Source: a virus. Taken from it: DNA of 40,075 nucleotides. Location: the IMG/VR virus record IMGVR_UViG_3300037076_000127, positions 1 to 40,075 of that record; one strand, given 5' to 3'. The notes below the pieces were generated by a model. It saw nothing but the letters and a program-made list of their open reading frames with translations. It was not told where the DNA came from and ran no database searches. The stretch's first letter is position 1, and each line of letters starts with the position of its first letter. Shown piece after piece: positions 1 through 40,075 of this stretch. Both the position numbers and the translations under genes were made by a program.

Positions 1-126
1 CGGCTCGGCCACGGTCAGGGCCTACGGCTCGGCCACGGTCAGGGCCTCCGACTCGGCCACGGTCAGGGCCTACGACTCGGCCACGGTCAGGGCCTACGAC
101 TCGGCCACGGTCACGGCCTACGGCTC
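1..126. repeat. Terminal direct repeat, left copy
   Basis: Identical to 39950-40075: five repeat units plus CGGCTC. It preserves frame and marks circular closure of the assembly or terminal redundancy. Because it lies in a tandem array it could also be a chance overlap. Confidence 0.8.
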
Positions 127-505
127 GGCCACGGTCAGGGCCTACGACTCGGCCACGGTCACGGCCTCCGGCTCGGCCACGGTCACGGCCTTCGACTCGG
201 CCACGGTCACGGCCTCCGGCTCGGCCACGGTCACGGCCTACGGCTCGGCCACGGTCAGGGCCTACGACTCGGCCACGGTCAGGGCCTACGACTCGGCCAC
301 GGTCAGGGCCTCCGACTCGGCCACGGTCAGGGCCTACGACTCGGCCACGGTCAGGGCCTACGACTCGGCCACGGTCACGGCCTACGGCTCGGCCACGGTC
401 ACGGCCTCCGGCTCGGCCACGGTCACGGCCTCCGGCTCGGCCACGGTCACGGCCTACGGCTCGGCCACGGTCACGGCCTCCGGCTCGGCCACGGTCGGGG
501 CTACC
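1..505 (+). repeat. 24-bp tandem repeat array, left part
   Basis: About 20 intact copies plus one decayed copy of a 24-bp unit with the core CTCGGCCACGGTCA. Units differ only at a few positions: the middle base of the Tyr/Ser/Phe codon, the middle base of the Gly/Asp codon, and the first two bases of the Thr/Arg codon. No synonymous change is visible among the intact copies. Confidence 0.97.
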
Positions 506-988
506 AAGTTCGTGGCCGTCCATCGCCGCTCGCGCGGCGCGACGATCACGGGTGGCGTGCAGATCGACGCGGGCGACCTCGACACAGCCGAGGCGTGGTG
601 CGAGTACCACGGCGTCCCGGTCGTCGACGGCATCGCCACGCTGCACAAGGCCGTGGACGACGACTGGTCGACCGACAACGCCCGGCGCAAGGGGATCGCC
701 TACGTCCCGGGCACCACCGTCGAGGCCAAGGACTGGAAGCCCACCAAGGCGTGCGGGAACGGCCTCCACGCCTGCGCCCACCCGCATCAGGCGCTCGGAT
801 ACAACAGCGGCGCCACGCGGTTCGTGGCGGTCACCGCGCCCGTCGCGAGCCTCGTGGTCATCGACGACGGCACGGTCAAGGCGCCGCGGTTCACCGTCGC
901 TGGCGAGGTGGACATCAACGGGCAGCCGAAGGCCGGACCGATCCCCGCCCCGAAGGCCAAGCGCACCCGGAAGGCGGCCGGGGCATGA
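1..988 (+). CDS. Octapeptide-repeat protein, 3' part with DUF7666-like domain
   Basis: Continuation of the gene starting at 39444. Twenty intact 24-bp units (from base 2) and one decayed unit at 482 lead in frame into a unique C-terminal domain of about 160 residues. That domain contains the segments [20 protein letters not shown] and [12 protein letters not shown], followed by a CGNGLH motif. These match my memory of the DUF7666 domain that follows SATV arrays in phage proteins. No catalytic motif is apparent. A GTG at 512 would open only the C-terminal domain, but nothing suggests it is used. The TGA overlaps the next gene's ATG. Confidence 0.85.
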
Positions 989-1326
989 CCCGCATCGCCG
1001 TAGACCTCGACTTCCTCGAGGCGAACCAGCTGATCTCCGCGGCCGAGCAGCACGCCGCGGTCCTCGCCTCGCACCTCGAGCGCGTGCCGGGCGTCGATGC
1101 CGTCCTGCTCCTGGCGGCCATCGCCCACACGCAGGGCGCGGTAGAGCGCATCCGGGCAGCGTTCGGGATCACGGATGGTCCGATCCACGGCCCGCACTGC
1201 GACGCCGACCTTCGGCGGAACGGGTGCGTCTGCACCGACGCCAGCGAGCGCGTCGAGCACGTCCGCGTGACCGACCCGGACCTGTACGCATGGGCCGAGC
1301 GGCTGGCTCCGGGACGGTTCGCATGA
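985..1326 (+). CDS. Hypothetical protein, 113 aa
   Basis: Starts with an ATG overlapping the preceding TGA (ATGA), which fixes the start. The N-terminal half is helical and rich in Ala/Leu/Val (residues 9-60). A short His/Cys segment follows ([16 protein letters not shown], about 71-86) that could bind metal. I do not recognise the family. It is coupled to the repeat protein upstream and overlaps the next gene, so all three are probably co-translated. Confidence 0.7.
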
Positions 1327-1523
1327 TCGCCCTGACGCCCGAGCCGGAGGAACCGACCGAGGCCCAGAAGTGGGCCGCGACTGTCGCCGCCTTCGATTGC
1401 CGGATGCTCGAGATGGCCGAGGCGATGGAAGCCGACCTCGACGACAACGGCCTCCCGGACATCCCCCTAGCGCTGGCCGACTGGGCCGAGAACGAGCGCC
1501 GCGCCCTCTACGGAGATCGGTAG
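1323..1523 (+). CDS. Hypothetical acidic small protein, 66 aa
   Basis: Begins with an ATGA overlap with the upstream stop. The product is acidic and mostly helical, with [11 protein letters not shown] near the middle and a conserved-looking [11 protein letters not shown] end. I recognise no domain. Position just before the annealing protein suggests it belongs to the early operon. Confidence 0.6.
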
Positions 1524-1525
1524 TC

Positions 1526-2476
1526 ATGAACGACGACCTCGGCCCACTCGCCGCTGCGCTGGCGAAAGCGCAGATGGACTTTCCCCCGATCAAGCGGGAC
1601 AAGACCGTCACCGTCCAAACCAAGACCGGCGGCTCGTATTCGTTCGCCTACGCCCCGCTCGACACGATCCTCGCCGCGGTGCGGAAGCCGCTCGCGGACA
1701 ACGGGTTGTGCATCGTGCAGATCCTCGACGATGACGGCCAGCCGATCCTCGTGACGCGGCTTCTGCACGACTCCGGGGCATCGCTCACCGGGCGCATGGC
1801 GATCCCGGCGACGCCGGGCATTCAGGAGCTCGGCTCGGCGATCACCTACCTCCGGCGCTACGCCATCCAGGCCGTGCTCGGCATCGCAGCCGAAGAGGAC
1901 GACGACGGCAACCGCGCCGCTGGAAACCGCGCAACCCCCGCGGCGCGCGGACGCGCTCAGACGGCCCCAGCCGCCGCAGGAGCCACGGAGACGACCGAAG
2001 CCGCACCGGCGGTCCATTCAGACGGCAGCCTCATCGGCACCGTCGCCATCGGCTCGGCGTGGCTCGAGGACCTCGAAACCCGCACGACCCCGACCGGCCC
2101 TGTGATCGGGTTCCGGCTCAAGTCCGGGCGCCAGACGCAGAAGGTGCAGGCTTTCGGCCCGATGGCCGTGGCGCTCGGCGGGCTCGGCACGGACCTCATC
2201 GGCCAGACCGTGACGTGCTGGGGAACGATGGTGGGCGCGGAGTTCACGCCGAAGGGGACCGACCGGCCAATCGAGTACCAGGTGCTGCGCTTGAAGAAGA
2301 TCCACGGCGCCACCTTCGACATCCCGGCTACCGAGTCGCGCGCCGTCCCTGACGAGGACGACCCGGAATGCGGCTCCGTAGCTGCGCCGGGGACGCTCAT
2401 GGAAGGCGCCGTCTGCACGCTGCTCCCTCACGCGACCGGACCGCACAAGAGCGCGAACGGATCGTGGCCGGCATGA
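1526..2476 (+). CDS. erf: ERF-family single-strand annealing protein
   Basis: ERF proteins bind single-stranded DNA and anneal complementary strands in phage recombination, and they help circularise terminally redundant genomes. This 316-residue product has the family layout: an N-terminal core (about 1-130) with FAYAPLDTILAAVRKPLADN and the hallmark segment GSAITYLRRYAIQAVLGI. An acidic EEDDDGN patch and an Ala/Thr-rich linker (about 130-175) follow. The C-terminal domain (about 180-300) resembles an OB-fold or accessory region and is less conserved. The ATG at 1526 lies 2 bases after the upstream stop; longer upstream starts would overlap that gene and are less likely. Confidence 0.85.
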   Translation: MNDDLGPLAAALAKAQMDFPPIKRDKTVTVQTKTGGSYSFAYAPLDTILAAVRKPLADNGLCIVQILDDDGQPILVTRLLHDSGASLTGRMAIPATPGIQELGSAITYLRRYAIQAVLGIAAEEDDDGNRAAGNRATPAARGRAQTAPAAAGATETTEAAPAVHSDGSLIGTVAIGSAWLEDLETRTTPTGPVIGFRLKSGRQTQKVQAFGPMAVALGGLGTDLIGQTVTCWGTMVGAEFTPKGTDRPIEYQVLRLKKIHGATFDIPATESRAVPDEDDPECGSVAAPGTLMEGAVCTLLPHATGPHKSANGSWPA

Positions 2477-2736
2477 GCGCCATCGACCGTGACCGGCTGG
2501 CACGGGCATATCACGCCGTCAACTGCCCACGACGGCGACAGGCCGCGATGCATTCCTGCGGCTATGCCAAGCAGCACCACGCAACGGCCGTGGCGCTCGC
2601 CGCCGAGTACCTCCGCCTCGCCGATCAGTGCGGCATCTGCCACCGCCGAGAGGCCGAGTCAACCATCGAATTCGGCGGCCGGTTGGTGAGCGTCTGCGGC
2701 ACCTGCCGTGAGCGCGGAGAGGAGGCTGCTTCGTGA
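2473..2736 (+). CDS. Small zinc-ribbon protein, 87 aa
   Basis: ATGA overlap with erf sets the start. The N-terminus is a basic helix (IDRDRLARAYHAV) and the C-terminal half has two CxxC knuckles, CGICHRRE and CGTCRERG, about 20 residues apart, as in a four-Cys zinc ribbon. Function unknown; nucleic-acid binding is plausible given its neighbours. Its opening AIDRDRLARA resembles the segment that follows the dispersed repeats at 8.6-11.2 kb (AIDRERLARA). Confidence 0.7.
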   Translation: MSAIDRDRLARAYHAVNCPRRRQAAMHSCGYAKQHHATAVALAAEYLRLADQCGICHRREAESTIEFGGRLVSVCGTCRERGEEAAS

Positions 2737-3470
2737 ACGATGAGCCGCTCGTCCTGTTCCCGGAGGACGCCACGCCGTACCTGCCGGTCGGGTCCATCAC
2801 GATCCCGGCTCAGGACCTTCTCCGTGCCCTCGTCGCGGTGATCCACGCGGCGGCAACGGACGACGCCCGGCCGATCCTGGCAGCCGTCGCCATCCAGCCG
2901 CGCGAGACCGCGGACGCGGTGCGCCTGATCGCTTCCGACAACTACCGCATCGCCATGTGCGACGTGGACGCTGAGCTCGAGGAAGCTGGGGACTGGCGCG
3001 GCACCGTCCCGGCCGCGGTCGAGGACGTCAAGCGGCTGGTGGCCGTGCTCAAGTCCGTCCCCGACATTCGGACCGACGAGTGCACGGCGCGAGTGGTCCT
3101 GACCCTCGGGGTGAAGGGCCTCGATGGCGCCAGTCCGCGCCGGCTGGACGCGTTCGTCAACGACGAGACGCCCATTGCCCGCCTACCGCTGCGCGTCATC
3201 GACGGCCTGTACCCGAACACCGCGCTCCTCATCCCGGCGGCCCCTGAGCACATCGCCACCTTCAACCCACAGTACCTCTCCGAGGCCGCGAAGTTCGGCG
3301 GTGCGGCCGATCCGGACGGCGGCGGGCTGATCAGTCAGGCCTGGTCCGGAAAGGGATCGGACGGACCCTTCGTCTTCCTGTCCGGCCGGTTCACCGAGAT
3401 CGTCATGCCGGTCAAGGCCGCCAGACGTGTTGACCCGGAGACGGGCGAGATCCTCGGCGGCGCGTCGTGA
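2733..3470 (+). CDS. Sliding-clamp-like protein (DNA polymerase III beta-type)
   Basis: Beta clamps encircle DNA and tether polymerases. The 245-residue product shows clamp-like landmarks: DARPILAAVAIQ, then VRLIASDNYRIA (the family's usual pattern is RPIL then L-A-T-D-x-Y-R-L), a FNPQYLSEAAKF segment, and a C-terminus ending FTEIVMPVKA, close to the usual MPM/MPV end. A bacterial clamp has about 370 residues in three domains, so this is a shortened or two-domain phage version. GTG start in a GTGA overlap. No phage polymerase is encoded, so it would have to work with a host polymerase or a repair enzyme. Confidence 0.65.
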   Translation: MNDEPLVLFPEDATPYLPVGSITIPAQDLLRALVAVIHAAATDDARPILAAVAIQPRETADAVRLIASDNYRIAMCDVDAELEEAGDWRGTVPAAVEDVKRLVAVLKSVPDIRTDECTARVVLTLGVKGLDGASPRRLDAFVNDETPIARLPLRVIDGLYPNTALLIPAAPEHIATFNPQYLSEAAKFGGAADPDGGGLISQAWSGKGSDGPFVFLSGRFTEIVMPVKAARRVDPETGEILGGAS

Positions 3471-3619: not shown

Positions 3620-3870
3620 CCGTCTTCAACATCGACAATGCGCCCATCACAGGTTGTCCCGACTGCGCGACGACGGCCGGACGTGCGGGGTGCACGCTCC
3701 ATAGCCGCCCCGTGCCGACCACCGCTGGGCCGGGCGTCTCAATCGTCCAAGAGGTCATGCACCGGCACCGCTGGGTGTACGACGGCCTCACCCCGTACGA
3801 CCAGCAGGCCGTCTACCACTGCGACGACCATGACCCGCCCGTGGTGCGCATCGTCGGGCTGCGGCCGTGA
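3616..3870 (+). CDS. Hypothetical protein with Cys/His pairs, 84 aa
   Basis: ATGA overlap start. It contains CPDC near residue 14, a further Cys at about 26 and CDDHD near residue 69, which may bind metal. No family recognised. Confidence 0.6.
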   Translation: MTVFNIDNAPITGCPDCATTAGRAGCTLHSRPVPTTAGPGVSIVQEVMHRHRWVYDGLTPYDQQAVYHCDDHDPPVVRIVGLRP

Positions 3871-4049
3871 CGCCCCTCCGTCATCCCGGCGAGTCGGCAG
3901 CCGCTGCCGTGCGACGCCTGGAGCCGCTCCCGGACTATGCGCGCCTCATGGGCTCCGAGGCCGGACAGGAACTGCTGCGCGAGGCGTGGCGCGAGGCCCG
4001 GGAGGCGCGACGGCTGACGGCTGTGCGTGGGCGGGAGGTGACGGCATGA
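3867..4049 (+). CDS. Hypothetical basic helical protein, 60 aa
   Basis: GTG start overlapping the previous TGA. The product is helical and Arg/Glu/Ala-rich (EAWREAREARRLTAV), with no recognised domain. It ends in an ATGA overlap with the helicase gene and may mainly serve translational coupling. Confidence 0.55.
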   Translation: MTPLRHPGESAAAAVRRLEPLPDYARLMGSEAGQELLREAWREAREARRLTAVRGREVTA

Positions 4050-6250
4050 GCGACTACGCGGCGTTCCTCGAGAGCAAGCGCATCGTCGTCGCGGCGCACG
4101 GCCCCCACGTCGAGGCCGAGGCCGTCAATCCGATCCTGTTCCCGTTCCAGCGCGACCTCGTGCGCTGGGCCGTCCGCAAGGGCCGGGCCGCGATCTTCGC
4201 GGACACCGGACTGGGCAAGACGTTCATGCAGATCGAATGGGCGCGGCTCATCGGCGAGCGGACGCTGATCGTGGCGCCGCTGTCCGTGGCGCGCCAGACG
4301 GCCCGCGAGGCGGCGAAGCTCGGCGTGACCGTGACCTACACGCGCGGCGAGCTTCTCGACGGCATCTCGATCACGAACTACGAGATGATCGAGCACTTCG
4401 ACCCGGCCGACTACGGCGCGGTCGTGCTGGACGAGTCCAGCATCCTCAAGGCGCTCGACGGCAAGACGCGGCGACTCCTGACGGAGATGTTCGCGGCCAC
4501 GCCCTACCGGCTGTGCTGCACCGCGACACCCGCCCCGAATGACATCGCGGAGATCGGCAACCATTCCGAGTTCCTGGGCGTGATGCCCCAGCACGAGATG
4601 CTGTCCGCGTTCTTTGTCCATGACTCCAATGGCACGGCCGAGACGGGCGGGGCGCGCGAGGGCTGGCGGCTCAAGGGCCACGCGGCCGAAGCCTTCTTTC
4701 GCTGGCTCGCGTCGTGGGGCATGGCTGTCCGCAAGCCGTCCGACCTCGGCTATGAGGATGACGGGTTCGCGCTCCCGGCCCTGACCATCCGCCCGGAGTT
4801 CGTGGAGGCGACCTACGTCCCCGAGGGCCAGCTGTTCTTCGCGGGGCTCAAGGGCGTGACGGACCGCGCGCAGGTGCGCAAGAACACCATCGACGCGCGG
4901 GTCGCCCGAGCGGCCGAGTTCGTCAACGCGAGCCCGGACCAGTGGATCGTCTGGCACGGCCTGAACGCCGAAGGCGAGGCGCTGATGCGCTCGATCCCGG
5001 GCGCCGTGCTGGTCGAAGGGTCGCAGTCGCCCGAGCACAAGGCCGAGGTGCTGGAGGCCTTCCAGGACGGCGCATATCGCGTGCTCGTCACGAAGCCATC
5101 CATCGCCGGGTTCGGCATGAACTTCCAGAACGCGCACCGGATGGCCTTCGTCGGCCTGTCCGACTCGTGGGAGTCCTACTACCAGAGCATCCGGCGCTGC
5201 TGGCGGTTCGGCCAGGCGCAGGAGGTGGAGGCGGTCGTGGTCCTTTCCGATGCCGAGGCGGCGATCTACGAGAACGTGATGGGCAAGGAGCGCGAGGCGC
5301 TGCGGATGCAGCAACGGCTCATCGATCACGTCTCCGGGTTCGAGCGTGAGGAACTGCTGGAGGAAGAGGAGGCGTTCCCGTACGAGACGACGACCGTCTC
5401 CCGTCCCGAGTGGACGATGATGCTCGGCGACTCGATCGAACGGCTGCGCGAGCTCGACGACTCATCGGTGGATCTCGCCGTGTTCAGCCCGCCGTTTGAG
5501 TCCCTGTTCACCTACAGCCCGAGCGACCGGGACCTCGGCAACAGCGCCAATACCGAGCAGTTCTGGACACACTTCCGCTTCCTCGTGCGCGAGCTCCTGA
5601 GGGTGACGCGCCCGGGCCGGAACATCGCCGTCCACTGCATGGCGATCCCGACGACCGTCGCCCGCGACGGGGTGACCGGCATCCGGGACTTCCGGGGCGA
5701 CATCATCCGCGGGTTCGTGGGTGAGGGCTGGACGTTCCACGGCGAGGTGACGATCGACAAGGACCCCCAGGCGCAGGCAATCCGCACCAAGTCGAAGGGG
5801 CTCCTGTTCGTCCAGAAGGACCGCGACCGCGGCTGGCTCCGGCCGGCGCTGGCCGACTACATCGTCGCCTTCCGCAAGCCGGGCGAGAACGCCGAGCCGA
5901 TCCGGTCCGACGAAGTGTCCAACGACGACTGGATCGAATGGGCCCGGCCGATCTGGTACGGCATCCGCGAGAGCGCCACGCTCAACGCGGCCGAGGCCCG
6001 CGACGACCGGGACGAGCGCCACATCGCCGCGCTCCAGCTGGAGACGGTGCGCCGCTGCGTGCTCCTGTGGAGCAACGCCGGCGACCTGATCCTCGATCCC
6101 TTCGCGGGCATCGGGACCACGGGCTACGTGGCCGTTCAGAACGGGCGCCGGTTCGTCGGCTGCGAGCTCAAGCGGTCGTACTTCGATGCGGCAGTTCGGA
6201 ACATCGGGCGCGCGTCCAACGTGATGACCCTCGGACTCGACGTGGCATGA
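4046..6250 (+). CDS. SF2 helicase - DNA methyltransferase fusion
   Basis: Two enzymes in one 734-residue chain. The N-terminal part is an SF2/SNF2-type helicase: Walker A ADTGLGKT (52-59, K58), DEAH-like LDES (128-131), motif III TATP (159-162) and motif VI QSIRRCWRFGQ (about 380-390). After an acidic linker (about 440-455) comes a DNA methyltransferase with the catalytic SPPF (481-484) and the SAM-binding DPFAGIGTTG (684-693). That order, motif IV before motif I, fits the beta class (N4-cytosine or N6-adenine). ATG at 4046 overlaps the preceding stop; the open frame continues upstream to about 3638 but only as a shadow of other genes. Known relatives occur in phages. Likely roles are replication-coupled unwinding plus self-methylation against restriction; no nuclease domain is visible, so this is not a complete restriction enzyme. 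Confidence 0.85.
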   Translation: MSDYAAFLESKRIVVAAHGPHVEAEAVNPILFPFQRDLVRWAVRKGRAAIFADTGLGKTFMQIEWARLIGERTLIVAPLSVARQTAREAAKLGVTVTYTRGELLDGISITNYEMIEHFDPADYGAVVLDESSILKALDGKTRRLLTEMFAATPYRLCCTATPAPNDIAEIGNHSEFLGVMPQHEMLSAFFVHDSNGTAETGGAREGWRLKGHAAEAFFRWLASWGMAVRKPSDLGYEDDGFALPALTIRPEFVEATYVPEGQLFFAGLKGVTDRAQVRKNTIDARVARAAEFVNASPDQWIVWHGLNAEGEALMRSIPGAVLVEGSQSPEHKAEVLEAFQDGAYRVLVTKPSIAGFGMNFQNAHRMAFVGLSDSWESYYQSIRRCWRFGQAQEVEAVVVLSDAEAAIYENVMGKEREALRMQQRLIDHVSGFEREELLEEEEAFPYETTTVSRPEWTMMLGDSIERLRELDDSSVDLAVFSPPFESLFTYSPSDRDLGNSANTEQFWTHFRFLVRELLRVTRPGRNIAVHCMAIPTTVARDGVTGIRDFRGDIIRGFVGEGWTFHGEVTIDKDPQAQAIRTKSKGLLFVQKDRDRGWLRPALADYIVAFRKPGENAEPIRSDEVSNDDWIEWARPIWYGIRESATLNAAEARDDRDERHIAALQLETVRRCVLLWSNAGDLILDPFAGIGTTGYVAVQNGRRFVGCELKRSYFDAAVRNIGRASNVMTLGLDVA

Positions 6251-18264: not shown

Positions 18265-20042
18265 GCCTGAGCACCCTGCCGCCCACGAGTGCGAGTGAGC
18301 GGACGGCAGGACGAGGTACTCGCCCTCAGCGGACGAAGGGATCGGGGACGCTCGATCCCGTCCGCGCCTATGCCCGCGCCGTGGTGGCCGGGAAGATCGT
18401 CGCGGGCCGGCTGGTGCGCCTCGCCTGCGCCCGCCACCTCGACGACCTCAAGACGGCCGCCGAGCGCGGGCTCGTGTGGGACCAGGACGAGGCCGATCGC
18501 GTCATCGCGTTCATCGGCCAGCTGACGCTCCCGTCCGGCCAGCCCTTCCGGCTCGAGCCGGCGCAGGCCTTCATCGTGGGCAGCCTGTTCGGCTGGCACC
18601 TCTCGGACGGGGCGCGGCGGTTCCGCACCGCGTACGTCGAGATGGGCAAGGGCAACGGGAAGACGCCGATGGCCGCGGCGCTCGGGCTCGTCGGGCTCGT
18701 GGCGGACGGCAAGCGGTCGGCCGAGGTCTACACCGCCGGCGTCACGCGGGACCAGGCGCACTACCTCTGGAACGACGCGCTGCGGATGGTCGAGGCGAGC
18801 CCCACGCTCCGCGGCCGGATCGACATCGGCGCCCACAACCTCGCGGTCCCGGCGACGGACAGCTACATGCGCCCGGTGTCCAGCGAGGCGCGGTCGCTCG
18901 ACCAGAAGCGCGTCCACATGGCGCTCGTCGACGAGATCCACGAGCACGAGACGCCGCTGGTCGTGGAGAAGATGCGCGCCGGCACCAAGGGCGACGACTC
19001 GGCCCTCATCGTCGAGATCACCAACTCCGGGTACGACCGCAACTCGATCTGCTGGCAGCACCACACCTACTCGATCGCGGTCCTCGAGGGCACGGTCCGC
19101 AACGACTCGTGGTTCGGGTACATCGCGGCGCTGGACGAGGGCGACGACTGGCTGACCGACGAGCGCGTGTGGCCGAAGGCGAACCCGCTGCTCGACACCA
19201 CGGTGACCCGGCGGTACCTCCGCGAGCAAGTCCAGGAGGCGCGCGACATGCCGGCCAAGGCCGCGCTCGTCGCCCGGCTCAACTTCTGCGTCTGGACCGA
19301 GGCGAGCTCCGCCGCGATGGAGATGGACCGCTGGGACGCCGGCGAGCCCGCCCCCGCGATCCCGGCCGGCGCCACGGTCTACGGCGGGATCGACGTCAGC
19401 TCGACGACGGACATGACCTCGCTCGTGCTGCTCCGCGAGCAGGACGGCGTGGTGGACGCGCTCGCGCGGTTCTGGTGCCCGCAGGCGACCATCGAGCTCC
19501 GCTCCCGGCGGGATCACCTGCCGTACGACGTCTGGGTGCGCGAGGGCTGGCTCACCGCCACCCCGGGCGACGTCACCGACTACGACGCCGTCCTGGCGGA
19601 CCTCACCAAGCTCTCCGAGCGGTACCGGATCGCCGAGTGCGCGTTCGTCCGGCTCAACGCCACGCAGTTCGTCACCGCGGCGGGCTCGCTCACGACGATG
19701 GTCCCCGTCAGCCAGACGTTCACCGGGCTCGGCGCCGCAACGAAGGACTGGCTGGCGCGCATCGGCGGCAGCACGAAGGACGCGCCGCGGATCCGCCACG
19801 GCGGCAACCCCATCCTGCGCTGGATGGCGGCCAACCTGGTCGTGGACACGAACGGCGCCGGCGACCTCAAGCCGTCGAACGAGCGGAGCACCGAGCGGAT
19901 CACCGGCCAGACCGCGGCGATCATCGCCCTGGGCCGTCTCGTGGCACCGCACGAGCCGGAGCAGGCTGCCACGCCCGGCATCCTCGCGTACTACCAGCGG
20001 CTCGCGGCCGAAGCCACCGCGCGCCAGGGGGTGCCGTCGTGA
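18261..20042 (+). CDS. terL: Terminase large subunit
   Basis: 593 residues. ATPase domain with Walker A MGKGNGKT (128-135, K134) and Walker B ALVDEIHEHE (D224-E225). The C-terminal nuclease-like part (from about 370) opens with GGIDVSSTTDM, typical of the RNase-H-fold acidic centre. It pumps DNA into the prohead and cuts the concatemer. The length and order match HK97-type terminases. ATGA overlap with terS. Confidence 0.92.
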   Translation: MSLSTLPPTSASERTAGRGTRPQRTKGSGTLDPVRAYARAVVAGKIVAGRLVRLACARHLDDLKTAAERGLVWDQDEADRVIAFIGQLTLPSGQPFRLEPAQAFIVGSLFGWHLSDGARRFRTAYVEMGKGNGKTPMAAALGLVGLVADGKRSAEVYTAGVTRDQAHYLWNDALRMVEASPTLRGRIDIGAHNLAVPATDSYMRPVSSEARSLDQKRVHMALVDEIHEHETPLVVEKMRAGTKGDDSALIVEITNSGYDRNSICWQHHTYSIAVLEGTVRNDSWFGYIAALDEGDDWLTDERVWPKANPLLDTTVTRRYLREQVQEARDMPAKAALVARLNFCVWTEASSAAMEMDRWDAGEPAPAIPAGATVYGGIDVSSTTDMTSLVLLREQDGVVDALARFWCPQATIELRSRRDHLPYDVWVREGWLTATPGDVTDYDAVLADLTKLSERYRIAECAFVRLNATQFVTAAGSLTTMVPVSQTFTGLGAATKDWLARIGGSTKDAPRIRHGGNPILRWMAANLVVDTNGAGDLKPSNERSTERITGQTAAIIALGRLVAPHEPEQAATPGILAYYQRLAAEATARQGVPS

Positions 20043-22663
20043 AGTTCGGCCCGCTCACCGTGACGCTCGGCAAGGCGGCCACGTCCGCCGTGGTGACGAC
20101 CGTCCCCGGCGCTGCACCCGCTCCCGTGCCGTCGCCGTCCTACGGGACCGCGTACCAGGCCGTGAGAACGACGGACCTCGCCGAGCTCGCCCGGCGGACC
20201 GTGGGGGAGGACCTCGGCCCGGGCGTGCCGATGATCCCGACGCACCCGGAGAAGATCGAACCGCGGATGTTCGACTACGTCCCGGGGTTCAACATCACGT
20301 TCACCCCGCGGACATACGAGGACATCCAGTTCGGCGCTCTCCGCGGGCTGGCGCGCTCGTGGGACGTCGCCGCGCTGTGCATCCAGCGCAACATCGACGA
20401 CCTGCGCCAGCTCCGGTGGGAGATCCGCCCCAAGGCCGTGCCGGGCATGGACCGCTCGGCCGTCAAGGAGCGCAAGAAGCGCCTCGAGGCGACCCGCGCC
20501 GAGGTCGAGGGCTTCTGGATGACCCCGGACCAGCGCCGCTCGTGGTCCTCGTGGGTCCACAGCTACTTCCAGGAGATGTACGAGACGGACGCCGCGTGCC
20601 TCTACCTCGAGCGGGCCCGCGACGGCACCCTCCGGCGCGTCCGGGTCATCGACGGGACGACGATCGCGCCGCTCGTGGACGACCTCGGCGAGCCGCCCGA
20701 GCCCCCGCAGCCAGCCTATCGCCAGATCATCCGCGGGCTGCCGTGGACGTACTACATGGCGGACCTTGAGCTGCCGGCGGACCAGCGGAACGTCTGGTTC
20801 GACCAGGCGCACATGATCTACGAGCCCTTCTGGGGCCGTCCCGACTCGCCCTACGGCCACCCGCCGATGGAGTGGGTCATGCTCACGACCCAGCGGGCCC
20901 TCGCGCGGCAGGTGCTCGACTACCGGCTGTTCGCGGACGGCACGACGGCCTTCGACTTCTGGAAGATGCCCCCGGATTGGTCCGCGACGCAGATCGCGGA
21001 GCTCCAGGAGGCCCACGACACCCTGCTCAAGATGCCCAAGGAGCGCGCCCGGCTGCGCTTCATGCCCGGCGGCGCCAACTCCGGCCTTGAGCACGGGTTC
21101 CTCGAGCCCAAGACCGAGGGCGAGGAGTTCCTGCTCCACGTCGGGTGCGCGGCGTTCAACCGCAGCCCGATGGAGATGGGCTTCATCCGGTCGTCCGGTG
21201 GCGCAGGGCTCGGCGGGAAGGGCGTCGCCAAGGAGCAGGGCGCCGCGGCCAACAAGGGCGTCCGTGCCGCCGCGTTCCACCTCAAGGCGATCATCGACCG
21301 GATCACCGGGCTCCACTTCAGCCCCGAGCTCGAGATCATCTTCCCCGAGCTCGAGGACACCGAGGCCGCGAAGGAGCGGGCCGAGGCCGAGGACATCCGC
21401 ATCCGCAACGGATCGCTCGGGCTCGACGAGGCGCGCCTCGACCGCGACCTCGACCCGATCGGCCCGTCCGGCAAGCCGTCGAACCTCATCTACCTCGGCA
21501 CGAACCCGCCGATGCAGGCCGTCCTGGCGCTGTCGCAGGAGGCCCCCGAGCCCCCGCCCGGTGGCGACAACCCGCCCATCCCGTCCGCGGTGCCCGGCAA
21601 GGCCACCGACACGGCCTCCGGCGTCGCCAAGGCGCTCGGCGGCAAGCACCTGGAGTTCCGGGGCGACCTCTCTCGCGTCGTCTCCCGCTACCTCCTGCGG
21701 TCCTACCCCGGCAAGGACGTCTCGTGGGTCACCGACCCGGACATCGACTGGGAGTACGACCCCGGCGTGCCGCTCGACGAGATCAACATGGCCCGCCGGC
21801 CGGGCGGCCGGAACGAGACGAAGGTCGCCGAGATCGCCGGCATCGTGGATGCGGGCGCGTCCGTGGATCCGATCGTCCTCGCCGACTTCGGGGAGCCCAA
21901 GTACCGCATCGCCGACGGCTTCCATCGCACGCTCGGGGCTGAGAAGGCAGGCAAGGACGCCATCCCGGCGTTCATCGGCCACCACGTCCCGGCCGAGTAC
22001 CGGGCGCTCGTCATGGGCCCGATGCAGGACGACTCCGCGAGCGTCGCGAAGGGCGATGCCCGCGTCGATCTGGACCGCTGGATGCGCAAGAGCCTCGGTG
22101 CCGCCAAGCGCGGCCAGTCGCCGCTCGTGCGCTTCGAGTCCGACGCGATCCCGGCTTCTCTCCGCGAGCAGGTCACCGCGGCGCTGCCCTTCGCCGCCTC
22201 GCCGGCCGCCATCCGGGCCATCTTCGACGTCCTGGGCGCGGACCTCGCCAAGTCCTCCGCGCTGGTCGTCCACGAGCCCGCGCCGGTGTCCACTCGCGCC
22301 GATCGGGCGCAGCAGGCGCTCGACGCCGTGGAGCGGATCACCAAGGCCGACGCGAACGAGGCCGAGGGCGTCATGGTCCTCGCTGGGGCCGTCGCGCGGA
22401 TGGCCGACGCGATGGCGATCCCGCAGCCGGCGCCCATCGTCAATGTCGCCGCGCCGGTCGTGAACGTCCCGGCCCCGCTGGTCAAGATCGCGGCCCAGCC
22501 GGCGCCCATCGTCAATGTCCCGGCTCCGATCGTGCGCGTCACAACGGACAACGCCCCGGTCGCCAAGGCGTTCGACGCGCTCCGCGAGGAGATGCATCGC
22601 CCGCGGGTCAAGACCGTCGAGCGCGACGCCGCCGGCCGCCCCACCCGAGTCACTGAGGAGTAA
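20039..22663 (+). CDS. Portal protein with C-terminal ParB-like domain
   Basis: 874 residues from a GTG overlapping the terL stop; the frame is open upstream only as a terL shadow. Residues 1 to about 500 are an HK97/SPP1-like portal (WDVAALCIQRNIDDLRQLRWEI; the GFIRSSGGAGLGGK region; FSPELEIIFPELED). Residues about 535-665 resemble a ParB/sulfiredoxin nuclease-like domain: VPLDEINMARRPGG (about 577), DPIVL, YRIADGFHRTLGAEKAGKD (DGFHR at about 626-630). The last 75 residues contain PAPIVNV-type repeats and a basic end. A portal normally has 400-550 residues, so the extra 350 form a real fusion. Confidence 0.85.
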   Translation: MKFGPLTVTLGKAATSAVVTTVPGAAPAPVPSPSYGTAYQAVRTTDLAELARRTVGEDLGPGVPMIPTHPEKIEPRMFDYVPGFNITFTPRTYEDIQFGALRGLARSWDVAALCIQRNIDDLRQLRWEIRPKAVPGMDRSAVKERKKRLEATRAEVEGFWMTPDQRRSWSSWVHSYFQEMYETDAACLYLERARDGTLRRVRVIDGTTIAPLVDDLGEPPEPPQPAYRQIIRGLPWTYYMADLELPADQRNVWFDQAHMIYEPFWGRPDSPYGHPPMEWVMLTTQRALARQVLDYRLFADGTTAFDFWKMPPDWSATQIAELQEAHDTLLKMPKERARLRFMPGGANSGLEHGFLEPKTEGEEFLLHVGCAAFNRSPMEMGFIRSSGGAGLGGKGVAKEQGAAANKGVRAAAFHLKAIIDRITGLHFSPELEIIFPELEDTEAAKERAEAEDIRIRNGSLGLDEARLDRDLDPIGPSGKPSNLIYLGTNPPMQAVLALSQEAPEPPPGGDNPPIPSAVPGKATDTASGVAKALGGKHLEFRGDLSRVVSRYLLRSYPGKDVSWVTDPDIDWEYDPGVPLDEINMARRPGGRNETKVAEIAGIVDAGASVDPIVLADFGEPKYRIADGFHRTLGAEKAGKDAIPAFIGHHVPAEYRALVMGPMQDDSASVAKGDARVDLDRWMRKSLGAAKRGQSPLVRFESDAIPASLREQVTAALPFAASPAAIRAIFDVLGADLAKSSALVVHEPAPVSTRADRAQQALDAVERITKADANEAEGVMVLAGAVARMADAMAIPQPAPIVNVAAPVVNVPAPLVKIAAQPAPIVNVPAPIVRVTTDNAPVAKAFDALREEMHRPRVKTVERDAAGRPTRVTEE
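22429..22541 (+). repeat. PAP-I/V-V-N-V repeats in portal C-terminus
   Basis: About five degenerate copies of PAP(I/V/L)V(N/K/R)V. One 20-base stretch around CCGGCGCCCATCGTCAAT is duplicated at about 22432 and 22499. This probably forms an extended, exposed tail. Confidence 0.6.
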
Positions 22664-24545: not shown

Positions 24546-25507
24546 TGCCGAACAACCGCACGCTCCTCGAGCGCTACCCGCTGACCCTCCAGACGGACGG
24601 GTTCGCCAAGTGGCACGACCGCCGGCTGCTGGCGCTGGCGAACGCGCCCTCATCGGCCAGGACTGGCACGGTCACGGGGACGGCCACCGCCTCGGGCACC
24701 GAAGCGGGAACCAGCGCACGCAGCGGCAGCGAGACTGGAACGGCAACCGCCACTGGCGCTCCGGTCGGCAAGAGCATCCGCAGCGGCAGTGAGACGGGCG
24801 CGGCGACGGCGGGCGGCATCGAAGTCGGGAAGATGGGCGCCAGGGGCACAGCGTCCGGCACCGTCACCGCCTCTGGCGTCGAGGCCGGGACGCGGACCTC
24901 GAAGGGCACCACAGCCGGCACCGCGACGGCATCGGGCGCGGAGGCTGGGGCGTCCGCTCGTCTCGGCACGGTGGCCGGCTCAGCCAGCGCGAGCGGCACG
25001 GATGCCGGCACGCGGACGGGGCAGGGCACGACGACCGGCGCCAGCGTCGCGGCCGGCGTCGAGGCCGGACAGACCGTCCGCAGCGGCACCAGCATCGGCG
25101 TCGCGATCGCCGCCGGCATCGAGACCGGCCAGAGCGGACGCGTCGGGTCCACGACGGGATCCGCCACCGCTGCGGGGGCCGACGCCGGGGAGTCCGGGCG
25201 GTACGGGACGCTGGTCGGCACCGCGACGACGGCAGGCACGGCCGCCGGGGCGCAGGGCGAGGCGTTCAGCGGCACGGTCGCCGGTGCATCCGTCGCAGCG
25301 GGGACGGTCGCCGGGGCCCGGTCAGTCGCACCGACGTCCGCCGCGGGCGGCATGACCTACGGGCCGACCGTCACGCGAGCGGCGCTGTACGGCCCGGACT
25401 TCGACGAGATCGAGCGCATCGTGGCCGCCGCCCGCGTCCAGGCGATCGATGACGACTGGATCCTCGGCCTGATCGATGACGACGAGTACCTGGAGAAGGC
25501 CGCATGA
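24545..25507 (+). CDS. 20-residue repeat protein (fibre-like), 320 aa
   Basis: A unique head of about 39 residues precedes 11 tandem 20-residue repeats with the approximate pattern xGTxTGTATAxGxEAGxxxR. The C-terminal about 55 residues are a normal acidic domain (GPDFDEIERIVAAARVQAID, then DDEYLEKAA) that could attach the repeat to the virion or to the protease. A beta-solenoid or collagen-like stalk is plausible. TGATG start overlap and ATGA overlap with the protease gene. Confidence 0.7.
   Translation: MPNNRTLLERYPLTLQTDGFAKWHDRRLLALANAPSSARTGTVTGTATASGTEAGTSARSGSETGTATATGAPVGKSIRSGSETGAATAGGIEVGKMGARGTASGTVTASGVEAGTRTSKGTTAGTATASGAEAGASARLGTVAGSASASGTDAGTRTGQGTTTGASVAAGVEAGQTVRSGTSIGVAIAAGIETGQSGRVGSTTGSATAAGADAGESGRYGTLVGTATTAGTAAGAQGEAFSGTVAGASVAAGTVAGARSVAPTSAAGGMTYGPTVTRAALYGPDFDEIERIVAAARVQAIDDDWILGLIDDDEYLEKAA
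24662..25321 (+). repeat. 60-bp tandem repeats (11 copies, diverged)
   Basis: Eleven 60-base units encode the 20-residue repeats. Unlike the 24-bp array the copies differ at many sites, so they are older or under different constraint. Confidence 0.8.
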
Positions 25508-39114: not shown

Positions 39115-39447
39115 ATGGCAGCACCGACGCAGTACATCGTCATCAGTGCGGGGCTCGATGACGCCGATATCACGGTCGACGACTGGGAGTACGAGGACGC
39201 GGGCGGAAGGAAGCAGCGCGTCTGCAACGTCAACGTCGGCCGGGTCGCCCTCATGTGCGGCTCAACGGACGCGGAGCGCGTCGCCTCCCTTGACCGGCTG
39301 ATCGCCGCCGCGACGAAGCTGCGCGAGTCCGCGGTGGACCGCATCGGGTTCGCTGAGCAGACCGCCATGCGGTGCGAGCCGTGCGACGAGGGGACGCCCC
39401 GCCCGCTGGAGACGCACCGGCACACCTGCGAGGCGGTGCCGGCATGA
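39115..39447 (+). CDS. Hypothetical protein, 110 aa
   Basis: ATG behind AGGAAAGGGG. Beta-rich N-terminus (TQYIVISAGLDDADITVDDW), a helical middle (RVASLDRLIAAATKLRESAV) and a C-terminal Cys motif (CEPC...H-T-C). No family recognised. It overlaps the octapeptide-repeat gene by ATGA. Confidence 0.6.
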   Translation: MAAPTQYIVISAGLDDADITVDDWEYEDAGGRKQRVCNVNVGRVALMCGSTDAERVASLDRLIAAATKLRESAVDRIGFAEQTAMRCEPCDEGTPRPLETHRHTCEAVPA

Positions 39448-40075
39448 CCACGATCGAAGTCCGCACGCAGAGCGAGCTCGACGCCGCGCTCGACACTGCC
39501 AAGGCGTACGACATCATCGCCATGGTCGGCGGCTCGTGGCTGGAAGTCAGCCGGCTGCCGAAGTCCGACTCGGCCACGGTCAGGGCCTACGACTCGGCCA
39601 CGGTCACGGCCTACGGCTCGGCCACGGTCTGGGCCTTCGGCTCGGCCACGGTCACGGCCTCCGGCTCGGCCACGGTCTGGGCCTACGACTCGGCCACGGT
39701 CACGGCCTCCGGCTCGGCCACGGTCACGGCCTTCGACTCGGCCACGGTCACGGCCTTCGGCTCGGCCACGGTCACGGCCTTCGACTCGGCCACGGTCACG
39801 GCCTCCGGCTCGGCCACGGTCACGGCCTACGACTCGGCCACGGTCACGGCCTCCGACTCGGCCACGGTCACGGCCTACGACTCGGCCACGGTCACGGCCT
39901 ACGACTCGGCCACGGTCACGGCCTCCGGCTCGGCCACGGTCACGGCCTCCGGCTCGGCCACGGTCAGGGCCTACGGCTCGGCCACGGTCAGGGCCTCCGA
40001 CTCGGCCACGGTCAGGGCCTACGACTCGGCCACGGTCAGGGCCTACGACTCGGCCACGGTCACGGCCTACGGCTC
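39444..40075 (+). CDS. Octapeptide-repeat protein with DUF7666-like C-terminus, 5' part
   Basis: This is the N-terminal part of a gene that runs off the window end and resumes at base 1 in the same frame. Joined across the 126-bp terminal overlap it would encode about 497 residues. Its ATG overlaps the stop of the upstream gene (ATGA). A non-repetitive head of about 41 residues is followed at 39567 by 24-bp units, each encoding (Y/S/F)(G/D)SATV(T/R/W)A. From 39567 up to the terminal overlap there are 16 units. The regular T-V-T/R spacing suggests a stacked beta-solenoid. Proteins with this SATV array and a DUF7666-type end are known from actinobacterial phages, but their role is unknown to me. 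The protein could be a virion fibre or an intracellular scaffold. Confidence 0.85.
   Translation, partial: MTTIEVRTQSELDAALDTAKAYDIIAMVGGSWLEVSRLPKSDSATVRAYDSATVTAYGSATVWAFGSATVTASGSATVWAYDSATVTASGSATVTAFDSATVTAFGSATVTAFDSATVTASGSATVTAYDSATVTASDSATVTAYDSATVTAYDSATVTASGSATVTASGSATVRAYGSATVRASDSATVRAYDSATVRAYDSATVTAYG
39567..40075 (+). repeat. 24-bp tandem repeat array, right part
   Basis: The same 24-bp unit, 21 copies to the window end, of which the last five plus 6 bases repeat the start of the window. TGG (Trp) variants at the Thr/Arg codon occur only here, at about 39615 and 39663. Phe variants are also more frequent than in the left part. Confidence 0.97.
39950..40075. repeat. Terminal direct repeat, right copy
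   Basis: Identical to bases 1-126. Removing one copy leaves about 39,949 unique bases. Confidence 0.8.

Follow-up and report, generated by a model that had tools for sequence, protein, structure and literature searches.

The window analysed here, a stretch of 40,075 nucleotides of viral DNA (IMG/VR record IMGVR_UViG_3300037076_000127), encodes across its joined ends a phage protein in which a hypervariable array of octapeptides is followed by a homologue of the T4 RIIB C-terminal domain. The sequence pattern strongly supports a history in which the repeat units would have been shuffled and homogenised, with selection for diversity at the protein surface. As to function, we lean, by a modest degree, towards an early intracellular protein made of an N-terminal cap, a solenoid of 37 octapeptides that is shuffled by recombination and kept diverse, and a RIIB-like C-terminal domain with a putative role in counter-defence.

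The window begins and ends with the same 126 bases, i.e., positions 39950-40075 and 1-126 are one and the same DNA, and joining the two ends yields a single open reading frame, from the ATG at 39444 to the stop at 988, that encodes 497 amino acids: a 40-residue N-cap, 37 octapeptides and a C-terminal DUF7666 domain of ~160 residues (Table 1). With the overlap counted once, the 37 units, of consensus (Y/S/F)(G/D)SATV(T/R/W)A, follow each other at a 24-bp period without interruption; the consensus codons are complete in 36 of them, and unit 37 (SGSATVGA) is an edge unit. This agrees with the preliminary description of this DNA, which had counted about 36 intact 24-bp SATV units across the joined ends. 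It is to be noted that 37 is a best estimate, since the contig was closed within the array, many relatives break there too, and short-read assembly can collapse repeats. ATGA overlaps couple the array gene to the open reading frames on both of its flanks.

Table 1. The array gene and its neighbours in the window, in the order in which they follow each other across the joined ends.
Feature	Position	Strand	Basis or remark
Upstream ORF, same operon, 110 aa; no family match; its stop overlaps the array-gene ATG	39115..39447	+	ORF, family search
5' part of array gene: N-terminal cap (39444-39563), units 1-21 and start of unit 22	39444..40075	+	ATG 39444 overlaps stop of upstream ORF (ATGA)
Octapeptide array, right part; final 126 bp are window 1-126	39564..40075	+	sequence
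Octapeptide array, left part (past the common 126 bp), edge unit SGSATVGA at its end	1..502	+	sequence
C-terminal domain DUF7666 (PF24703), homologous to T4 RIIB C-terminal domain; stop 986-988	503..988	+	Pfam, hhalign, PHROGs, Foldseek
Downstream ORF, 113 aa; no family match; its ATG overlaps the array-gene stop	985..1326	+	ORF, family search
Erf-like single-strand annealing protein	1370..2476	+	PHROGs, E 3e-34
RusA-like resolvase or processivity-factor-like protein; early/replication context	2733..3470	+	PHROGs
Helicase fused to DNA methyltransferase (both matches in one ORF); early/replication context	3638..6250	+	PHROGs

Within the window array, codons 3 to 6 read TCG GCC ACG GTC in all 37 units and codon 8 reads GCC in 36 of them, and the variation that remains (TAC/TCC/TTC, GAC/GGC and ACG/AGG/TGG, with GGG in the edge unit) changes an amino acid in every case. 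There is indeed no synonymous change among the 36 intact units, as had been noted earlier. Taken alone, this array says little, as the independent alleles that segregate in it number only about five; that none of them is synonymous is only mildly unusual, the chance from opportunity counts being ~0.18 if any nonsynonymous change is permitted and ~0.03 if change is restricted to codons 1, 2 and 7. The significance of the missing synonymous change comes instead from family-wide counts, made on 563 interior units of 46 arrays; the phages concerned range from 35 to 74% in GC content. In these arrays, codons 1, 2 and 7 account for 175 nonsynonymous alleles, the other codons for 18, and synonymous alleles number 27 over all eight codons, at a mutational opportunity of ~1:1 between variable-codon nonsynonymous and silent sites; when a single array was kept per codon skeleton, the numbers were 94 at codons 1, 2 and 7, 2 in the core and 17 synonymous. 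The core codons are frozen inside each array, yet differ from array to array: identity of silent core codons is 92-99% within arrays versus 30-47% between them (Fst-like value 0.85-0.98), whereas for the amino acids at the variable positions the two identities lie far closer to each other (Fst-like value 0.18-0.34). The same amino-acid choices, namely S with Y or W, G with D, and R with E or T, recur regardless of the codons used, two-base changes included; the R/E pair, for instance, is spelled CGG/GAG, AGG/GAG, CGA/GAA or AGA/GAA in different arrays, which argues for selection at the level of the amino acid. In a few arrays (L006, L053), the R and E alternatives each come with silent differences of their own, indicating that units are inherited by copying. 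No lag was prominent when the arrays were searched for the higher-order periodicity expected for stacked faces.

These counts bear directly on the explanation by neutral concerted evolution only, in which unequal crossing-over homogenises the units, and residues at exposed sites vary simply because variation there is tolerated. Such a process accounts for the frozen silent codons and for changes in copy number, the core residues are clearly constrained, and the lack of synonymous alleles in the window array alone is not strongly significant against it. However, neutral homogenisation should remove tolerated amino-acid variants like silent ones, and it is only the amino-acid variants that persist (175 versus 27); the same residue pairs, moreover, return with different codons and through two-base changes. 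We consider it unlikely that neutral processes are the whole account, and prefer shuffling and homogenisation combined with selection for amino-acid diversity.

The structure of the array was predicted by AlphaFold2, as the preliminary description had proposed, and the result was a confident, repetitive beta-solenoid: in a single-chain model of the N-terminal part and 21 units of the window protein, a strand was placed in every octapeptide with a pLDDT of 96-97 over the array, and the full-length model of a relative (L003; mean pLDDT 85.6) comprised a cap, a solenoid and a C-terminal domain. The predicted array thus forms the regular, strand-per-repeat coil by which beta-helices and beta-solenoids are recognised. 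A fold search of the PDB with the models returned no significant match. Judging from the pattern of the repeat, the variable positions should be exposed, as the strand has S, T and x7 in alternation with A, V and A, and x1-x2 lie at the turn.

The genomic neighbourhood is that of an early gene. On its 3' side, the array gene is followed by genes for the Erf-type annealing protein, the RusA-like protein and the helicase-methyltransferase, and tail and head genes are located elsewhere; in the named phages as well, it lies within early or replication operons, distant from tail genes. From this position we infer that it is an early gene and not a virion gene, and the Erf-like protein may be a source of recombination in the array. 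PADLOC matched no defence family. The location is relevant to the proposal that the protein is part of a spike or fibre, forming a trimeric needle like the C-terminal beta-helix of T4 gp5, and not a monomeric intracellular solenoid. The gp5 helix is likewise built of octapeptide beta-helical repeats, and PF22178, the gp5 trimerisation family, which is an octapeptide family too, reached 33.2 bits on one half of the window array gene (cut-off 30.9) and 29.7 on the other, a single and marginal match above cut-off; weaker PHROG matches to hub or baseplate proteins were obtained with relatives. Repeat-driven profile matches are, however, low in specificity, and AlphaFold2 folded the single chain with high confidence, in a run that covered one chain and not trimers. 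gp5 is a trimeric structural spike, whereas the array gene resides in early operons away from the tail genes; we consider a needle improbable.

Closely related isolates reveal how the array changes. Mycobacteriophages that are identical over at least 567 flanking nucleotides of the gene carry different arrays. The array gene is the same in five isolates (Redi, PhancyPhin, Hanako, Purgamenstris and Nenae); BabeRuth differs from Redi at 2 of 3456 nucleotides, both inside the 96-nucleotide array, and Rebel differs at 3 of 3456, two of which are inside it. By our reading, BabeRuth and Rebel would each be Redi with its middle cassette overwritten by a copy of the cassette on its left or right. In Raymond7 the array is shorter by one unit, and together Redi, BabeRuth, Rebel and Raymond7 constitute a natural near-isogenic set that differs mainly in the array over the compared stretch. 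Frankie and SkinnyPete, phages of different genera, show 0 differences over 570 nucleotides of the gene flanks, and their arrays, of 14 and 12 units, are rearranged. Metagenomic pairs that differ only within the array (L022, L030, L049) were left out of this count, being mostly near contig ends. Linkage between variable residues falls from 0.29 at 3 nucleotides to 0.17, 0.10, 0.05 and 0.02 at 6, 9, 15 and 18 nucleotides, and is about zero from 24 nucleotides onward. Such a smooth decay with distance is predicted by exchange between misaligned units, although joint selection on neighbouring residues could contribute a part that is not separable from exchange.

The same data weigh against a dedicated mutator, i.e., a diversity-generating retroelement or another form of targeted mutagenesis that alters the variable bases. 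The changes do fall at fixed codons and arise faster than changes in the flanks, as such a system would have it. Nonetheless, no single base type is affected, since A/C/T, A/G, C/G and A/T alternatives are all seen while the adenines of the core ACG stay constant; the distance-dependent decay of linkage is what recombination predicts, and not independent toggling; and no reverse transcriptase was found among the gene products scanned, which were a part of the ORFs. On the base-change pattern and the linkage decay, targeted mutagenesis of the retroelement type was rejected, and a mutator of any kind is disfavoured as very unlikely. Thus, where the preliminary description had offered recent expansion or homogenisation together with selection or targeted change at surface positions, expansion or homogenisation and selection have strong support from the 46 arrays and from the isolates with identical flanks, and targeted change is not needed: amino-acid choices that are independent of codons and reached even by two-base changes, with linkage that decays with distance, fit recombination plus amino-acid selection. 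The gene would then exemplify a phage protein that is diversified by the shuffling of short repeats, with no need for a mutator enzyme.

A search with the repeat as query retrieved 51 viral loci, 16 named phage records and nine loci in bacterial genomes, the latter belonging to Bacteroidota, Actinomycetota and Bacillota. The viral loci range from 35% to 74% in GC content, and the SATV core is nearly invariant across the relatives. When the C-terminal domain by itself served as query, no phage record (tblastn) and no viral contig was retrieved, and the relatives were found instead by querying with the repeat and with a homologue from a mycobacteriophage. The analogy to ice-nucleation and TxT solenoid proteins that had been drawn at the outset can practically be dismissed, as the likeness consists of short octapeptide repeats with threonines and tyrosines and a predicted beta-solenoid, whereas the continuity of the ladder, on which ice nucleation proteins critically depend (PMC9418140), is lacking in its TxT and Tyr form, the TVT unit is missing from 24 of 39 arrays, no ice-nucleation Pfam family matched at E up to 1, ice-binding proteins appeared only as non-significant fold matches, and the gene is an intracellular phage gene in an early operon.

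In most relatives the partner domain is DUF7666, placed C-terminal to the array. Other partners are DUF5758 in L019 and different domains in L005 and L022 and in the Bacteroidetes type (L031, L053), these four carrying the octapeptides with no DUF7666 hit on the partner domain. In L038 (3596-4354) a DUF7666-like domain precedes the array, with an E of 2e-4 that is under the Pfam cut-off, and a similar sequence, with no DUF7666 hit, lies ahead of the array in L042 (3647-4153), which indicates that the domain order can be swapped. Che8 gp59 and its mycobacteriophage relatives share the architecture (a recognisable N-cap, the array and DUF7666) and the early location, but differ from the window protein in having an SA(H/R)V core in place of SATV and arrays of 3-20 units. 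Furthermore, frame changes or truncation have disrupted the gene in three of these phages, Nitzel, EleanorGeorge and Soul22 (L070 1340-1956, L071 1321-1956, L072 1339-1818), in which it must be dispensable. Matches to DUF7666 (PF24703) and phrog_15773, the latter spanning the repeat and the C-terminal domain, were obtained for the window protein and 23 relatives; both entries are annotated as of unknown function, and neither notes the variability of the array or the kinship to RIIB. Among the papers covered by a literature search, none dealt with DUF7666, DUF5758 or the SATV octapeptide repeat, and under the terms searched the Girr screen contained no mention of such an array gene.

A single 92-kb viral contig carries two array genes (L005 2579-3631 and L035 3434-4522) with nearly identical N-terminal domains and different arrays. 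In a Porphyromonas phage (L053 3674-4447), the array is built from two cassettes only, RAWG and EACD, arranged like a binary string and each carrying silent codons of its own; the array of the companion record, L054, is N-masked.

The C-terminal domain of the array protein and that of T4 RIIB are homologous. DUF7666 scored 44.6 bits on window positions 2-988 against a curated cut-off of 27, and matched all 24 of the C-terminal domains. When a profile of these 24 was compared by hhalign, E was 8e-7 with T4 RIIB alone, 4.7e-10 with seven diverse RIIBs, and still 6e-7 when the CGxGLH motif was masked, whereas the reversed, permuted and N-terminal controls gave 0.14-0.83, the N-terminal part of RIIB scoring 0.14 against the C-domain profile. 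PHROG models of RIIB directly matched three of the 24 domains (best E 1.2e-8), and Foldseek against viral models returned many RIIB matches, with E from 2e-5 and the best at ~2.3-3 A over ~115 residues. Pfam misses this relationship, as DUF7666 was detected in just one of the seven RIIBs, with an E of 0.08, and a sequence search of the PDB left the C-terminal domain unmatched. The two proteins have in common the homologous domain, with its conserved lysine, C-x2-GLH and K..K region (phrog_609, 36818 and 3803 on the RIIB side), and their status as early phage genes. They differ at the N-terminus, where RIIB has a helix-turn-helix (HTH) and the array proteins have a cap, of 40 residues in the window protein, and the hypervariable solenoid; the HTH/middle region is absent from the array proteins, and HTH families match the RIIBs only. 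In T4, moreover, RIIB acts together with RIIA; the window and the array phages tested yielded no RIIA-like gene, and phrog_609, which also covers T4 RIIA, left the window unmatched.

The rII locus founded fine-structure genetics, and T4 RIIB is the classic protein by which a phage overcomes the defence of a resident prophage. RIIA and RIIB of five divergent phages (T4, MM02, EdH4, SUSP1 and N4) suppress lambda RexAB, and the specificity of the interaction was described in 2025 as still unclear after nearly seven decades (PMC11879866). Here a RIIB-type domain is joined to a half on which diversifying selection is strong, and this suggests the variable surface as the seat of specificity.

A mechanism can be proposed as follows. 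There are strong grounds to believe that the conserved SATV-coding DNA would let units misalign and exchange, by slippage, unequal crossing-over or single-strand annealing, and that this exchange would homogenise silent sites, alter the copy number and shuffle the residues of x7-A-x1-x2. Selection, on equally strong grounds, would hold the SATV core constant and, at each of the three positions that are exposed, maintain a choice of several amino acids. The solenoid would serve for binding or recognition, with a surface that changes fast; the RIIB-like domain would putatively do the work of RIIB, suppressing a prophage- or host-encoded system of abortive infection or superinfection exclusion. 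Differences in the solenoid from one phage lineage to the next would follow from continual change in the opposing target, or in a sensor by which the solenoid is recognised. Several facts speak against parts of this scheme. RIIA is missing, and the homology is limited to the C-terminal part of RIIB, with the HTH excluded, which both count against a RIIB-like role; the same octapeptides occur on partners with no DUF7666 hit, so that the role of the solenoid need not be tied to RIIB; and the dispensability of the gene in the three mycobacteriophages with broken copies argues against counter-defence. In addition, arrays from metagenomes may have been wrongly assembled. Considering phages of several bacterial phyla together, we suggest only tentatively, at somewhat less than even confidence, that a recombination-driven solenoid with an SATV core is mounted on interchangeable effector domains, the RIIB type among them, as a rapidly reprogrammable recognition surface directed against the exclusion systems of prophages or hosts.

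Some minor observations may be added. In the DUF7666/RIIB domain (L003 model; window 503-988), K, C-x2-GLH and E are invariant, and GxGLHFS..A..Y recalls the cores of ADP-ribosyltransferases; full-model fold matches in the PDB to PARP10 and rifampin ADP-ribosyltransferase were weak (E ~3-4), and together with the motif they suggest, but do not establish, a possible ADP-ribosyltransferase-like fold. Elsewhere in the window, the ORF at 18476-22663 has a portal protein match followed in the same frame by a ParB-like domain, which suggests a fusion of a portal with a ParB-like enzyme, and an ORF of the structural region contains a 60-bp tandem repeat in two copies (25021-25133).
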